A stretch of 64,000 nucleotides of DNA from a virus, in IMG/VR virus record IMGVR_UViG_3300046323_000587, positions 1-64,000 of that record; one strand, 5' to 3'. The translations under genes were made by a program, and so were the position numbers. Under the pieces are notes generated by a model. That model was not told the origin of the DNA. It worked only from the letters and a program-made list of their open reading frames with translations, and did not search any database. Numbering within the stretch: the stretch's first letter is position 1; the number at the start of each line of letters is the position of its first letter. Positions 4,036 to 54,187 of the stretch are shown here, one piece after another.

Positions 4036-4281
4036 ATGCTACCACAAGATATTGAAAAGAATTACGATAAAGATAGATTAAAATTAAGAGAAGAAAATAC
4101 TAGAAAGAAGTTAAAGGCTTTATCTATGGGTTATGAATATGTATTAAATGAGGGTTGGTATAATAATAAAGGAGAATTTCTTTGTAGAAATGGTAGTAAA
4201 TTAAACTTTAATATAACAGAATCAAATTATGCAAATTGGAGAAAACATAAAGAAGATAATATATTTAAAAGTCAAAACTAG
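4036..4281 (+). CDS. Hypothetical protein, 81 aa, upstream of a toxin-like gene
   Basis: A small charged, soluble protein with a helical N-terminal half (LREENTRKKLKAL). Its 3' end overlaps the next gene by 53 bases, since the ATG at 4229 lies inside it; that is a long overlap even for this window, so one of the two starts may be wrong. Unknown role. Confidence 0.5.
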   Translation: MLPQDIEKNYDKDRLKLREENTRKKLKALSMGYEYVLNEGWYNNKGEFLCRNGSKLNFNITESNYANWRKHKEDNIFKSQN

Positions 4282-12665: not shown

Positions 12666-13595
12666 ATGGATAAAACAGAAATATTTTTAAAAAAATGTGT
12701 TAAAATACACGGAGTAAATAAATACGATTTTAGTAAAGTAAAATTTGTAAACAGTAAAACAAAAATAAATCTAACTTGTCTTATATGTAACTATAACTTT
12801 GAAGCATTGCCAGAAAACATATTTAAAATGAAAAATTGTAAAATTTTTACTTATAAAAATTTGAAACAAAATCAAAAAAAATCTAACGACTGGTTTTTAG
12901 AAAAAGTAAAACTAGTTCATAAAGATAAATATTCTTATTTAAATGATTATTTAGGAGCTAAGTCTGTTATTACTATAAAATGCAATATTTGTAATAATAT
13001 TTTTAATCAAAGAGCAAGTAGTCATTTGGAAGGGTTTGGTTGTAAAAAATGTGCTGATAATTTATCTACTAAGACACAACGAACACATTTTTTAGAATTT
13101 GAAAAAAAATGTGATGAATTACACAATAATAAATATATTTATTTTAATGATTTTGTAAATAACAAGTCAAGATTAAAAATACAATGTAAAACTTGTTTGA
13201 ATATATTTGAACAATCTGTATGCGGACATTACAATAAAAAACAAGGTTGTCCTATTTGTAAGTTTTCAAAAGGAGAAGTTGTAGTACAGAAATATTTAGA
13301 TATTAATAATATAAATTATGAAACTCAAAAAAAATTTAAAGATTGTAGAAACAAATTACCTTTAAGGTTTGATTTTTATTTGCCTGATTACAACACTTGT
13401 GTTGAATTTGATGGTCTTCAACATTTTGTGAACGTATCTATATTTAAAAACAGTTTTGAGTATGTTGCAAATAATGATAAAATAAAACAAGATTATTGCA
13501 ATAGTAAAAATATTAAATTATTAAGAATTTCTTATAAAGAAATAAAAAATGTTTGCAAAATACTAGATAATTTTATACTTAATTTTAAAAATTAA
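12666..13595 (+). CDS. Zinc-module nuclease, homing-endonuclease type (Vsr/EDxHD-like C-terminus)
   Basis: The start is taken at ATG 12666. Three repeats of about 65 residues each begin with a KIHGxNKYDF-like helix and carry zinc-binding Cys pairs (CLIC, CNIC with CKKC, CKTC with CPIC), the DUF723-type modules of phage nucleases. The first module has lost part of its Cys set. The C-terminal domain (about 205-309) contains RFDFYLPDYNTCVEFDGLQHF, the Asp/Glu-rich core of Vsr-like or EDxHD endonucleases. Such genes are mobile, usually free-standing homing nucleases that cut related phage genomes. No intron was identified around it. Confidence 0.75.
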   Translation: MDKTEIFLKKCVKIHGVNKYDFSKVKFVNSKTKINLTCLICNYNFEALPENIFKMKNCKIFTYKNLKQNQKKSNDWFLEKVKLVHKDKYSYLNDYLGAKSVITIKCNICNNIFNQRASSHLEGFGCKKCADNLSTKTQRTHFLEFEKKCDELHNNKYIYFNDFVNNKSRLKIQCKTCLNIFEQSVCGHYNKKQGCPICKFSKGEVVVQKYLDINNINYETQKKFKDCRNKLPLRFDFYLPDYNTCVEFDGLQHFVNVSIFKNSFEYVANNDKIKQDYCNSKNIKLLRISYKEIKNVCKILDNFILNFKN

Positions 13596-13599
13596 AATA

Positions 13600-14067
13600 G
13601 TGTCTGGTTTTAATACAGGAGCAGATTTTGCAGCAATTAAAGCTGCAAAAGATAATGGAATGGAAACAAGTGGTTATATGCCGAAAGGTTATAGAACTGA
13701 GAAAGGAACTAAACCTGAGTATGCTGAATTATATGGAGCAGTAGAACATAGTAATTAGGATTATTTAAGCAGAACTTTACAAAATGTACTAGATAGTAAT
13801 TGTACCATTATATTTGAATATATTTTGTCGTCAGGTAGTTCTAATACAGTTTATTATTGTAATAAATATAATAAACCTTATATGAGATTATATGATTATG
13901 AAATAGATGATAAGCATATTGTAAATAAAATTCTTACTTTTATAATAATAAAAAACCCAAAAATATTAAACATTGCAGGTAATAGAGAATCAGTATGTAA
14001 TGGAATTGGAGATAAAGTTTACAAGATTATGAATGAAGTATTTAAACAATTAAATAATTTAAAATAA
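13600..14067 (+). pseudogene. Circularly permuted YpsA/SLOG-family protein, interrupted by TAG
   Basis: The frame reads IVSGFNTGADFAAIKAAKD, YMPKGYRTEKGTKPEYAELY, then HSN, TAG (13756), DYLSRTLQNVLDSNCTIIF. These are the blocks of the cpYpsA/putative molybdenum-carrier SLOG family, nucleotide-related Rossmann-like proteins common in phages. The rest is open to 14065 with no indel. The start is unclear: GTG at 13600, or an upstream codon, since the family normally begins one or two residues before the conserved K-I-V-S-G. An independent short product from the internal TCG/TTG region is unlikely. Confidence 0.7.
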
Positions 14068-33048: not shown

Positions 33049-33821
33049 GAACAATTTATATTACACAAATAAAATTACTATAAAATCTGAATCTCTTTTA
33101 TATATATATATCAAAAATAAATAAAAAATTTTTAAACCTTGAAAATATAGAAGATATTAAAACAGACATAGTTGAATTAGATTTAATCAAAAAAACAATT
33201 AAAAATATTGATTCTAATGAAAATTTTGAAGATTTGATAGAATTTAAATCTAGTTTAGAATTTGATAAATTTTTAAATGAATTTAGAAAAACTAATTATG
33301 TAGCAATTCTAAAAGATTCAACATTTAAAGATTGCTTTAAAGATGTAAATAAAATTATCTGCACTTTTAATGAAAAAGATTAGATCAGTTTTGAGAGTAA
33401 AAAAGAAACAATTTATACGAAAAGAGAACATAAAATTTATATTAATAAACTATATCTAACTGGTCAACAAGTATTATTATTTGACTATAAATATAAAAAC
33501 TTTTCTAATTACCAAGATATAAAACAATTAAATATAGATTTATATCATTTTTATATGAATGATTGCGGAAATGTTACAATAAATTTAGAAACAAATGAAT
33601 TAATAATTCATTCAGAAACAGACGAAATAAATCCAAGAATAGATTTTTTGAGATTTAATCAAATAGGTGATATTTATGAAATCATTGATAACTATAAAAA
33701 ATTTGGTTATGTAATTGTATCACATAATTTTTTATCTGAATATACTTATAAAGATGGATTTAATATACTGTGTTCATTTGATAACGGCAATTTACATTGG
33801 AATAAATATTCTGCAAGCTAA
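33049..33821 (+). pseudogene. Partner family C, broken double-unit gene after the toxin remnant
   Basis: ATG at 33049 (MNNLYYTNKITIKSESLLYI) loses phase in a TA dinucleotide run near 33100-33113. The next phase is open from there to 33819 except for TAG at 33381. It holds two family C units: the first ends FNEKD-TAG-ISF, aligning with FGDNVWKSY and FGEDTWVGY of the intact genes at 34817 and 35239, so the stop replaces the conserved Trp. The second unit contains YKNFSNYQDI and ends FDNGNLHWNKYSAS. An ATG at 33555 could still start the last 88 codons. Confidence 0.7.
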
Positions 33822-42404: not shown

Positions 42405-43361
42405 TTGAAAACAGATAATTTACATAAAGCCAAAAAAGTAAAAAATGACGAATTTTATACTTTTTATGAAGACATTGAAAAAGAATTACAACATTATAAA
42501 GAAGAATTAAAGAATAAAATTATTTATTGTAATTGTGATGATTATAAAATATCTAATTTTTATAACTATTTTCTTAATAATTTCAAAGAATTAGAGATCG
42601 CTAAACTGATTACAACTCATTATAACAATAATAATTCAATTGCTTATAAAACAGAAACCACATTTGAAAATGATGAAGTCGTTATAACAATACAGGCATT
42701 AAAAGAAGACGGAGATTTTGCTAGTCAAGAATGTGTTGATATATTAATCAATTCAGATGTTATTGTTACTAATCCACCTTTTAGTTTATTTAATAAATAC
42801 ATTTCTTTATTAGAAGACCACAATAAAAAATATCTTGTAGTTGGTAATTTTGGAGCTGTTTCTTATAAAAAGATATTTAAGTTAATAAAGTCAAATAATC
42901 TTTATATAGGAGTAAATAAAATTAAAACTTTTCTTCAACCTGATAATACAATTAAAAAATTTGGAAATATTTGTTGGTTTACTAACATTAAAAATAAAAC
43001 AAACGATTTTATTAAATTGACTAAACTTTATAGTCCAACAAATTATATAAAATATGAAAATTTTGATGCTATTGACGTTGATAAACTAAAAAATATTCCA
43101 AAAGATTTTACAGGTGTTCTTGGAGTCCCTATTACTATTTTAGAACAATTTAATTCTTTACAATTTACTATTATAGGTTTAGGTAGTGGAAAATCTTTAC
43201 AAGAAATTGCTCCTAATTGTACCTACCCTAAACAATTTTTAATTGATTATTTTAATTCAGGTAAGAAAGGACATTTATCAGAAGGTATGTTTGGTTTAGC
43301 TTTATATAAGAATGGAATACCTATTGCACCTTATAGTAGAATATTAATCAAAATAAATTAA
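42405..43361 (+). CDS. EcoRI-family adenine-specific DNA methyltransferase
   Basis: A 318-residue protein of the EcoRI-like adenine methylase family. KVKNDEFYTFYEDIEKELQ (about 9-27) is the family's N-terminal block, IIYCNCDDYKISNF (about 38-51) lies in the SAM-binding region, VTNPPFSLF (about 121-129) is the catalytic NPPF motif, and NICWFTNI appears later. The start is TTG at 42405, where the N-terminus aligns; no ATG is close. No cognate restriction gene is seen, so it is probably an orphan methylase used to mask phage DNA from restriction. Confidence 0.88.
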   Translation: MKTDNLHKAKKVKNDEFYTFYEDIEKELQHYKEELKNKIIYCNCDDYKISNFYNYFLNNFKELEIAKLITTHYNNNNSIAYKTETTFENDEVVITIQALKEDGDFASQECVDILINSDVIVTNPPFSLFNKYISLLEDHNKKYLVVGNFGAVSYKKIFKLIKSNNLYIGVNKIKTFLQPDNTIKKFGNICWFTNIKNKTNDFIKLTKLYSPTNYIKYENFDAIDVDKLKNIPKDFTGVLGVPITILEQFNSLQFTIIGLGSGKSLQEIAPNCTYPKQFLIDYFNSGKKGHLSEGMFGLALYKNGIPIAPYSRILIKIN

Positions 43362-47350: not shown

Positions 47351-47548
47351 ATGAAAATAAAAAATAAACTAATTAAAAATCCAGATACTTGAATTGTAAA
47401 TGAGTTTGATGATTGGGGAAGAGGTATTGGTATAGAAATTGTTGTAGTGCCGCCTTTTGATTTAGATATTGATACAGTTGATGTAAGATGGGAAGATGGT
47501 AAATATTTTGAATTTATTAAACAATTAACTAAACTTGAGAAACAATGA
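47351..47548 (+). pseudogene. Conserved phage protein with one in-frame TGA
   Basis: ATG at 47351, PDT-TGA (47390)-IVNEFDDWGRGIGIEIVVV, PPFDLDIDTVDVRWEDGKYFE, stop at 47546. The DxWGRGxGxxVVxPPF...VDVRWxxGxxFE layout is a known phage family. Only one stop and no indel interrupt it, and other Trp codons remain TGG. The next frame's ATG overlaps the stop. Confidence 0.62.
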
Positions 47549-47971
47549 AAAAGAAAATTGGTTTTATTTTATTATTAATTACTATGTTCTTATATCTCTT
47601 GATGATTTAAGAATAGAATTTACAGGAAATATTAATAATAAAACCAAAGATAAAAAGATTTATCAAGAAGCTATTTTAAGAACAATAGTAGCTTTAAAAC
47701 AAAATAAAAATGTGATATTTGATTCTACAAATTTAACAAAAGAGAGAAGATTGCCTTTTATAGAATCTGTTAAAAAAAGTTGCCAAATAGTATAATTAAG
47801 TATAAATTATTTGATATAGGTTCTTCAACAGCTAAACAAAGAATACAAAATGATATTCAAAGTGGAATTAGTAGAGCTTCTGTACCAGATTCTTCAATAG
47901 ATAGACATTTTGAATCTTATAAACAAATGCTTGAAGACATTAAAAATGAAAATATAATTATTATGAATTAA
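47545..47971 (+). pseudogene. Polynucleotide kinase-like gene missing its P-loop
   Basis: ATG at 47545 encodes MKKKIGFI, the usual lead-in to a Walker A motif, but the GxxGxGKS block is absent. Another phase gives YYVLISLDDLRIEFTG, KIYQEAILRTIVALKQ and NVIFDSTNLTKERR (DxTN, typical of T4 Pnk-like kinases), and after an extra base near 47792 a third phase gives IIKYKLFDIGSSTAKQRI and DSSIDRHFESYKQM. An internal deletion of about 15-20 codons plus a frameshift inactivates it. Its role would have been 5' RNA or DNA end phosphorylation, partner to an RNA ligase. Confidence 0.75.
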
Positions 47972-48488: not shown

Positions 48489-48759
48489 TTTTACTAAAAC
48501 ATATCAAAATTATATTGGTAAATATTATGAATATGATGAAAGTAGAATTAAAATTATTAGAGTGTGTACTGAATTTGAATGTACTAGGATTCGTTGTATT
48601 AATGGAGTGTATTGTGTTCAATACAATATTGAAGGAATTGATCGGTATAAATATTTTAAAATCTACTATGAAAGTAACTTTTTAAATTTGATAAAAAATG
48701 GAGTAGAGTTAAGTGAAGAAGAGTTTTATAAATTTAACGAAAAATATGAAAAACATTAA
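48458..48759 (+). pseudogene. Gene frameshifted in an A8 run
   Basis: ATG at 48458 encodes METPIKKK then TAG; the A-run 48473-48480 precedes it. In the next phase the text runs 90 codons, VVDFTKTYQNYIGKYYEYDE, CTEFECTRIRCING, to TAA at 48757. One extra or missing A explains the break, and transcriptional slippage could restore it. Family unknown. Confidence 0.55.
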
Positions 48760-50089
48760 AGAATTATACAAACAACATTGTCTTGAATATAACATTGAAT
48801 TTCAAGACCAAGAATTAACGGTAAAACCATATAATGATTCTACATTATTTTGTCCAGCAGGTATTCAGCAATTTAATCATTTAATTAATACTGGTTTTAA
48901 AGGTACATTTGCTAATATACAACCTTGTATTAGATTAAATGATTTAGAAGAGATTGGAGATGGTTCTCATTTATTATATTTTAATATGATTGGTCTATTT
49001 TCTTTTAGAGAATTGACATTACAACAAGCTATTGATTTTTGGATGAGTTTTATATCAAATAAATTAGAATTGAAGTTAAGTAAAATTACTATTCATCCTG
49101 ATAAACCTGAATAGAGAGAATTATATAATGACTATAAAGAAAAAGAGTTAATTCAATTTGATGAAGGTTGTATTTGGAAAGATGGGGTTAGTGAAGGATA
49201 TTGTACTGAATTTTATGTTGAATATTTAAGTGAAGATTTAGAAATTGAAAATATTGTAAATCCTAATGGAAATTCGATAGATGTGGGATTTAGTTGAGAA
49301 AAGAGTGATATAGCTGTCAAATACCAAGAATTAGAAAAAGAAACAGTAAAATTTTTGATTGAAAAAAGAGAATAGAAAAAGTTATTACAATACAAACTTA
49401 AGGATCAAAAAAATAACTTAATCAACTACAATAGTATTATAAAACAAATTAACCCTGCAGTAAGTCCAAATACTATTTATTATTGGTATTCTACAACTGA
49501 TAAACAACGTCAAATAGACCGCCAAAATAAACTACAAAAATGGTTAGAAGTTAATCAACGTGAAGGAGTTGAATATGATCTTCCAGGTTTATCACATACA
49601 TTTGAAAAATATTTATTAAATAGTGTTCTAAGTAAATATTTAGTAATAACAAAAAATAATGTGAGCTTATTTATTCAATATTTTGATAATTTATATAAAA
49701 AATTACAATAAATAAACGTCAGTAAAAAACAAACTCTTATTAATATTATTAATGAATTATTAGATTCTGAATATTTACCTTCTAATAAACTACAAGGTTA
49801 TGTTACAAGAAAATTAATTAGATTGTAGTATAAAGAATATAGTAAAAATGATAAAAAATATATTGAATCTAAATTTTTATCAATTTCTTTATATAATAGT
49901 ATTAAATTAGAACAATTAGCAATGTTTAAATCTTCAATATATAATGTGTTACCTGTACAAAAAGAAGTTGAAATCTATGAAAAAGCAAAAGAAACTTATT
50001 TAAGAAATAAAGATAAAGCTAAATTTAAAGATAAATCAAGTGACTGGTGGCAAGATTCGTTTGGAGTACGTCCAGAAGATTTTGAATAA
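48746..50089 (+). pseudogene. Alanyl-tRNA-synthetase-related gene with five in-frame stops and no frameshift
   Basis: The ATG at 48746 overlaps the previous frame; one phase runs 447 codons to TAA at 50087. The catalytic-core text of alanyl-tRNA-synthetase-related proteins is clear: STLFCPAGIQQF, RLNDLEEIGDGSHLLYF, GLFSFRELTLQQAIDF, IHPDKPE-stop-RELY, WKDGVSEGYCTEFYV, NIVNPNGNSIDVGFS-stop, later PSNKLQGYVTRKLIRL-stop and a terminal DWWQDSFGVRPEDF. Stops: TAG 49112, TGA 49295, TAG 49373, TAA 49709, TAG 49826. The first sits at the Trp expected after IHPD. Six or more TGG codons remain. Editing and tRNA-recognition domains are absent, as in the short phage-type relatives. Confidence 0.8.
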
Positions 50090-50207: not shown

Positions 50208-50574
50208 TACGAAACAAATACAAGAAAAAACATCAAAATATATTATATTTCTTGATACAGAAGAATTTAAATATTATAAACAATTAAAATCTAATCCAGA
50301 ACAATTAATAGAAGTTAAACAATTTCCTAAGATATTTTATGTTTGGGAAGAAGTTAATACAAAAGAATATCTTGTTAATACTGAATATAGAGATATTTGT
50401 TATAACATAGCGGAAGAAGTGCACGAAAATATGGATTACGATGATATTGAAATTGGTAACATTAATAGTTTATATTTAGATTATTTTAACTATGAACCAG
50501 AAGAGTTAGTAGAAAATATTAAACATTGGAATTTACCAATAGAATTAATAGAAAGATTAGAAAAATTAACTTAA
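50200..50574 (+). pseudogene. 124-codon open frame apparently starting with ATA
   Basis: The frame INTKQIQEKTSKYIIFLDTEEF through YVWEEVNTKEYLVNTEY to IERLEKLT is uninterrupted from ATA at 50200 to TAA at 50572, with no earlier ATG in phase. The overlap with the upstream stop would be normal if ATA were ATG. Apart from the start it looks like an ordinary acidic protein. Family unknown. Confidence 0.5.
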
Positions 50575-50585
50575 TTCCTAACAAG

Positions 50586-50807
50586 ATGGAGCTATATAAA
50601 CATCAAATAACAGTAACAATATTAACTGATAAACCTATTGAGAATTTAGACGAGTTGCCTTTAACAGAAATAGAAGAGACTTATACAACAGGTCATTGGT
50701 TAGGTTTAAGTAAAATAAAATTTATTAATCAAGAAATAAAAGGAAAACAAAATCAATTAAAAGAATGTAAAAAATTAAATAATGGCGGTGAATTTTTTGA
50801 TTTATAG
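50586..50807 (+). CDS. Hypothetical protein, 73 aa
   Basis: Start at ATG 50586 (MELYKHQITVTILTD). Resembles small phage proteins with an N-terminal strand ITVTILTDKP and a WLG motif. The phase after its TAG continues directly into the next frame, whose start is ATA. Confidence 0.5.
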   Translation: MELYKHQITVTILTDKPIENLDELPLTEIEETYTTGHWLGLSKIKFINQEIKGKQNQLKECKKLNNGGEFFDL

Positions 50808-50816
50808 ATTGTAATT

Positions 50817-50966
50817 ATAGAAAAACTAAATAGTTTTATTGATAAACTAATTTTAGAATATCAAAAACATTTATTAAAAAGTAATAAAACACTAAGAAGT
50901 TTACCTAATGACTGAAAAATAGAATTACAAGAAATAGTTGAAGAATTAATTGAAAATACTAAATAA
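50817..50966 (+). pseudogene. Short gene with ATA start and in-frame TGA
   Basis: GTAATT-ATA-GAAAAACTA again has start-site context with ATA for ATG. The frame reads EKLNSFIDKLILEYQKHLL, SLPND-TGA (50913)-KIELQEIVEELIENTK, 49 codons. A former Trp at the TGA would read naturally. Unknown role. Confidence 0.42.
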
Positions 50967-50968
50967 AT

Positions 50969-51337
50969 ATGAATAATCCTTCACAAATATTAAAAGAATA
51001 GTTATTTAAATTTTGTTTGATAGAACTTAAAAAATTTGAAGAATTTAAAGAAGAAGAGATTAAACCTAATAATTTTGATGAGTTTACTTCTTTTATTGAT
51101 AAATCTTTTAAAGAAGAAAAATGTAGATTATTTATAGACATTTTACACGAAGTAATTGAAAATAAAATAATTTCTCACTTATTTATAGGAGAATATAGTA
51201 TTAAATATACTTTTAAAATAAAAAAAGATTGTATACAAATCTATAACTCAATAAATGACGAAACTATTATAAATAGTATTGAAAAAACATATTTTGTGAA
51301 ACCTATTAAAATTACTACTTATGTAAGAATATACTAA
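50969..51337 (+). pseudogene. Gene with TAG at codon 11
   Basis: ATG at 50969, MNNPSQILKE, TAG (50999), then an open phase of 111 codons, LFKFCLIELKKFEEFKEEE to ITTYVRIY. Internal TTG codons just after the stop could restart translation. The body is intact. Family unknown. Confidence 0.5.
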
Positions 51338-53376: not shown

Positions 53377-53571
53377 ATGATAAAAGAAATCAATAAATTA
53401 AGTTTTAAATACTTCGATAAAGAAGAGTTATTAACTTTTAAAGAAATTATTAATAATACTAAGCTTGAAAAAATTAAATCAGGATTAGAAATAAAGAAAA
53501 GACTTTTAAAATATTTTGCTGAAGTAGATATATTGTATGAAGATGCTAGCCAACATTCTCTATACTATTAA
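53377..53571 (+). CDS. Hypothetical protein, 64 aa
   Basis: Small helical protein (KLSFKYFDKEELLTFKEII) two bases after the previous gene. Ends one base before the ATA-started frame that follows. Confidence 0.45.
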   Translation: MIKEINKLSFKYFDKEELLTFKEIINNTKLEKIKSGLEIKKRLLKYFAEVDILYEDASQHSLYY

Positions 53572-53572
53572 A

Positions 53573-54187
53573 ATAAGCAGAAGAAATTATATTTTACTTT
53601 AAGTATTTTCTAAAGAATACATTTCTTTTTCTAGTGTATATAAAGATAAAGATGAAATAGTTAGTGCTTTTATTGGTGTTATAATTTCTTATGTAGATAT
53701 TAGTACAAGTGAACTTGAAAGTGAATTAGACAATTGTTTATACTCATTAATTGATATTATTGAAACACACTATTTAAAAAAAAATCAAATTATTTTAGAT
53801 TTTGTTTATGAATATTACTATAAGTTACTTAAAAAAAATAAAAATTTTAATTTAGCTGAATATAGAATAAACTCTACTAAACCTGAAAACTATAGTATAT
53901 TTTTTAAAAGTTTTATTATTCGTTCATATTATATTTATGATACTGATGAATATTTATTACTTAAATATAATTCTTTTATTGTAACTAATTTAAGTAAAAT
54001 ATTAAATTTTAGTATTACTAAAAAGCATCTTTTATTAGATTGTCGTAAATTAAATGATAATATATTAAGTATATACGAATCGGATAGCGATAATAATATA
54101 ATGAAACCAGAACGTTATTATATTGTTCCTACACCTGATTTAATTAAAGAATATGATTTAAATGATTTAATTATTAAATTAAAATAA
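53573..54187 (+). pseudogene. 204-codon frame with ATA start and one TAA
   Basis: ATTAAA-ATA at 53573 has normal start context with ATA for ATG. The frame reads SRRNYILL, TAA (53600), VFSKEYISFSSVYKD, and stays open 190 codons to 54185 (LLDCRKLNDN; PERYYIVPTPDLIKE). Restoring ATG and TGG would give a complete 204-residue protein with a natural N-terminus. No indel. Family unknown. Confidence 0.55.

Follow-up and report, generated by a model that had tools for sequence, protein, structure and literature searches.

The window analysed here, bases 1–64,000 of the 226,480-base IMG/VR virus record IMGVR_UViG_3300046323_000587, carries on its plus strand, at 48746–50089, a single frame of 447 codons related to alanyl-tRNA synthetase (AlaRS). 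The frame opens with an ATG at 48746 that overlaps the end of the preceding open reading frame (ORF) in operon-like fashion, closes at a natural TAA (50087–50089) and is interrupted by five in-frame stops: TAG at 49112, TGA at 49295, TAG at 49373, TAA at 49709 and TAG at 49826. It contains no frameshift anywhere. The original prediction had reported this frame, the order of its stops and its unbroken phase, and the sequence bears all of this out. The absence of indels applies to frameshifting ones only: alignment with relatives reveals that phase also held across two in-frame insertions, of ~126 and ~26 codons.

A hidden Markov model of codon usage, trained on the same phage’s own genes, recovers 48754–50086 as uninterrupted coding sequence that never changes phase. 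Split at its stops, the frame gives six pieces with scores of 0.17–0.32 nats per codon; intact genes have 0.22 ± 0.04, and neither alternative frame rises above 0. Because 10–16% of codons are stops when this DNA is read out of frame, 441 further sense codons with five stops are not an accidental opening. Elsewhere in the record, true internal stops number two per frame at most; the remaining flags are mostly TAA codons that end a gene, with an ATG close behind.

The read-through protein matches the class II AlaRS family PF01411 over residues 27–163 (E = 1.8e-16, 60.3 bits, above the curated cut-off of 30.3 bits), which makes it a member of the AlaRS profile; at the DNA level the match has E = 6.6e-16. 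We found 25 phage relatives of ~260–290 amino acids, namely the 634,780-bp phage genome LR745206.1, which is the closest match in the annotated collection, and 24 IMG/VR contigs; the nearest are ~50% identical to the window copy in protein sequence, a distance at which synonymous sites are saturated. A search with two patterns returned no relative in cellular genomes. All aligned relatives have motif 3 as G[FW]GLER, and the intact phage proteins consist of the class II catalytic core and a short tail, retaining motifs 2 and 3 with a much shortened tRNA-recognition domain and no editing or C-Ala domain: they stop after ~260–290 residues, and the PF01411 match covers only profile positions 1–204 of 552. 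A profile built from the family alignment finds AlaRS crystal structures, and the predicted structure of the closest relative, L004 (predicted local distance difference test score 85), matches AlaRS catalytic fragments with E ~1e-15 and a template modelling score of 0.74. The original prediction had named intact relatives, along with a dN/dS near one, as a sign of simple decay; such relatives exist, as none of the 25 has an internal stop. The only broken one, L026 (7980–8679), is split by a frameshift: it is another decaying copy, or its assembly is faulty.

Several relatives sit among phage tRNA genes, tRNA-Ala included, or adjoin other miniature synthetases. A putative role of the family in charging phage tRNA-Ala is plausible. 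The nearest relative’s genome gave three tRNA matches only, of which the one examined is a tRNA-Met. At L007:7132–9466, a 239-amino-acid Trp/Tyr-type, a mini-AlaRS and a 210-amino-acid His-type miniature synthetase stand in a row; at L002:7220–8852 and L013:7146–8813, a class II core of the G/H/P/S/T type adjoins the mini-AlaRS, and a Thg1 gene lies near the L002 copy. In the genome of the window phage, we found neither a member of the tRNA-synt_1b or tRNA-synt_2b families nor anything related to the L002 neighbour.

Against this family, the window copy divides into four parts. Its 5′ part (48746–49114) encodes an intact 122-amino-acid stretch spanning the motif 1/2 region and ends at the first TAG (49112–49114), which occupies residue 123, a Trp invariant in relatives. 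The remaining catalytic core (49115–49334) no longer has five of its 25 invariant residues, a figure that includes the Trp replaced by the stop immediately upstream, and carries a degraded motif 3: the TGA (49295–49297) replaces the invariant Leu of GFGLER, and with the additional changes G183S and R186K the motif reads GFS-stop-EK, so that no complete GxGxER remains. After motif 3 follows the ~126-codon insertion (49335–49717, edges approximate), which occurs in none of the relatives and has TAG 49373 and TAA 49709 within it or at its edge. The C-terminal part (49718–50089; PSNKLQGYVTRKLIRL ... SSDWWQDSFG) contains TAG 49826, in a column that is hydrophobic or aromatic (Tyr/Cys/Leu-type) in relatives, and the second insertion of ~26 codons near residues 374–400, before the natural end. 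The premature stops thus stand where relatives carry sense codons, as in a pseudogene.

The larger insertion has no convincing homologue in viral contigs, phage records, Pfam, PHROGs or PDB sequences and matches no Rfam RNA family or Rfam intron; a structure model gives it low-confidence helices. We rejected a self-splicing intron or intein on the missing Rfam match and homologue, with intein domains checked through Pfam only. A weak tblastn match (E = 0.3) to one among thousands of microviruses raised a microvirus capsid gene fragment as a candidate, and we judged it a chance match because PF02305 and PHROG 514 fail to match the insertion.

We compared constraint up to and beyond the first stop using alignment columns invariant among relatives. 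Before it, the window copy keeps 26 of 26 invariant residues; after it, 24 of 31 (Fisher p = 0.01); over residues 123–200 it keeps 20 of 25, whereas relatives keep 375 of 379 (p = 6e-5), both p values being optimistic because the relatives share ancestry and are not phylogenetically independent. Beyond the core, 4 of 6 invariant residues persist in the C-terminal part. The window copy is 61% identical to L004 up to the first stop and 49% over residues 123–198, whereas the other relatives are 45–57% and 51–63% identical to L004 over the same two regions and most show no fall. Constraint is therefore relaxed downstream of the lesion, which argues for decay and not for readthrough.

The terminase large subunit, portal and major head proteins match PHROG head-and-packaging families, and the best terminase matches include crAss-like phage genomes; on these similarities, the source genome (226 kb) is a jumbo crAss-like phage. 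Its early region is low in GC (21.6% in the window). ORFs of up to 3,833 amino acids are open under the standard code (code 11), and TerL, portal and the major capsid protein are open under table 11 without the in-frame TAG or TGA codons that would mark code 15 or 4. The 105 window ORFs of at least 60 amino acids end in TAA (84), TAG (12) or TGA (9), so TAG and TGA function as terminators and the phage uses the standard code. Our search for a suppressor tRNA in the phage genome found none: the sole tRNA (L038:9762–9829, record bases 213762–213829; 50.8 bits in Rfam) carries an anticodon loop of 4 nt, UUAU, with no usable anticodon; relative to phage tRNA-Gln genes, exactly three bases are missing at the anticodon. 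We rejected reassignment of TAG to Gln and TGA to Trp on the open hallmark genes and the failure to find a suppressor.

Taken together, the frame very probably once encoded a miniature AlaRS-like protein, which is intact and widespread in other large phages, and has decayed recently; its first 122 codons may still be constrained. In the sequence of events that we infer, the protein gained in-frame insertions in a crAss-like jumbo phage; after the gene had ceased to function, base changes set five stops in a 3′ part that would no longer be translated. Translation would end at TAG 49112, presumably leaving no functional read-through product; the 122-amino-acid 5′ product is possibly still expressed and under constraint, in some presumed role, but as it lacks motif 3 it cannot be a complete synthetase. 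Phase would survive because little time has elapsed, roughly 0.05–0.1 substitutions per site, and because indels are less frequent than substitutions. Of the three accounts of the preserved phase in the original prediction, one, recent bursts of point changes, stands in a plain form as recent decay. The other two, readthrough and selection acting downstream, find no support: past the first stop, conservation that every intact relative keeps is lost, two of the alignable stops lie on invariant residues, and the stops replace different amino acids.

The same prediction had reasoned that neutral decay should add indels, a premise that proves weaker than stated. With the codon usage of this AT-rich gene, 4–10% of random substitutions create a stop, and the probability that five stops accumulate ahead of the first frameshift equals (n/(n+i))^5, with n denoting the fraction of nonsense changes and i the rate of frameshifts relative to substitutions. 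For assumed indel:substitution ratios of 0.02, 0.05 and 0.1, this probability is ~0.23–0.44, 0.05–0.16 and 0.01–0.04, respectively. At about 0.01–0.4 under plausible indel rates, preserved phase alone requires no special mechanism. In simulations, a neutral divergence of ~0.05–0.08 per site produced 4–6 stops over this length and left most of the codon signature in place.

Several observations nevertheless count against recent decay. There is no frameshift at all, and both insertions are in frame too. The downstream codon signature is not measurably eroded, at 0.256 nats per codon compared with ~0.18–0.20 in simulations run to the divergence required (joint probability ~0.01–0.04), a mild excess of preservation. 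TAA makes up one of the five stops, compared with 57–70% expected from random mutation, a mild shortage. No closely related genome covering the locus was found: a near-identical IMG/VR contig lacks this region, and an exact DNA pattern search gave no other copy. The optimism of the Fisher tests belongs on the same side.

Were the stops read through or reassigned, for example with TAG decoded as Gln by a suppressor tRNA, as occurs in many crAss-like phages, the full 447-amino-acid protein would be made. Every between-stop piece does retain coding signature, and TAG accounts for three of the five stops here, with further TAGs in neighbouring frames; but all three stop types are present and replace different ancestral residues, two of them invariant, which is not expected of a reassigned codon. 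The late and structural genes, moreover, have no internal stops, TAG terminates 12 of the 105 ORFs counted above, no suppressor tRNA was found in the phage genome, and conservation collapses in a step at the first stop that a read-through product under selection would not be expected to show. We consider this explanation very unlikely. Slightly more doubtful still is the idea that the lineage formerly read TAG as glutamine, with the tRNA-Gln-like tRNA a suppressor remnant and the TAG-rich broken frames of the early region fossils of a lost code; for the mini-AlaRS itself, the TAG on an invariant Trp and the additional TGA and TAA stops speak against it.

A sub-case compatible with recent decay deserves more weight, although we hold it to be somewhat unlikely: the 5′ piece of 122 amino acids could be a living, shortened gene, dead only behind TAG 49112. 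The full set of invariant residues before that stop, the absence of any earlier stop, a pre-stop identity to relatives as high as among intact genes and the operon-like start all fit this proposal, but without motif 3 and the remaining fold the product cannot be a synthetase, and 122 codons are a short target in which, by our own estimate, zero stops would be expected with a probability of ~0.2 at the estimated divergence. Sequencing or assembly error is the most improbable account. The locus is known from a metagenome record with no reads at hand, but error would have to produce five substitution-type stops in one gene on a contig with long clean genes elsewhere, and around terL the sequence is matched over 8 kb at 100% identity by a second IMG/VR contig of the phage, which does not span this locus.

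The gene lies in a stretch, ~47.5–51.3 kb, where other frames also look broken. Downstream on the plus strand, decayed-looking frames occupy 50210–50570 (without an ATG start), 50571–50963 (with TAG 50805 and TGA 50913) and 50964–51335 (with TAG 50999). An AAA_33-like kinase fragment at 47535–47971, spread over two frames and matching its profile from position 25 only, looks broken as well. At 53377–54184, a 64-amino-acid ORF precedes 194 open codons in a different frame that have no listed start, possibly a frameshift-split gene. Two otherwise open frames, 13573–14064 and 33118–33815, hold one in-frame TAG each (13756 and 33381). Elsewhere in the window, a family of ~300–340-amino-acid proteins with an N-terminal hydrophobic segment appears, by eye, to have expanded many times (starts at 4229, 5872, 8631, 16529, 31433, 33851, 36741 and 54860), and 42405–43361 encodes an EcoRI-type adenine methyltransferase (PF13651, E = 9e-84).

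Recognisable pseudogenes are rare in phage genomes, and a gene caught in mid-decay would indicate that some translation genes carried even by jumbo phages are dispensable. For gene callers, it is a caution that stop-riddled frames in crAss-like phages are not always recoded; decay and reassignment can be told apart by comparing conservation across the first stop. Of greater interest is the intact family: miniature synthetases that lie within arrays of phage tRNA genes or adjoin other small synthetases.

Set against bacterial AlaRS (PF01411; PDB 3hxu, 1riq and 9jc7), the phage proteins resemble the catalytic fragment over the class II core in both profile and fold, and intact relatives have the motif 2 region and the GFGLER motif 3. 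They differ in their length of ~260–290 amino acids, in lacking the editing and C-Ala domains and in their shortened tRNA-recognition region, differences to which the window copy adds its stops, its inserts and a ruined motif 3. The main-text passages on synthetases in a survey of huge phages describe up to 15 per phage, suggested to charge phage tRNAs, and mention neither a miniature AlaRS nor a decayed copy (Al-Shayeb 2020, PMC7162821). In crAss-like phages, same-frame gene fragments broken by standard stops or in-frame inserts have been described, mostly in late or conserved genes, and linked chiefly to TAG or TGA reassignment, or to introns and inteins (Yutin 2021, PMC7886860). The mini-AlaRS frame resembles those cases in its phage group, its single frame interrupted by stops and its in-frame inserts. 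Unlike them, it is a dispensable early-region gene with all three stops in a genome that otherwise follows the standard code, and the explanation of those cases by code reassignment does not fit it.
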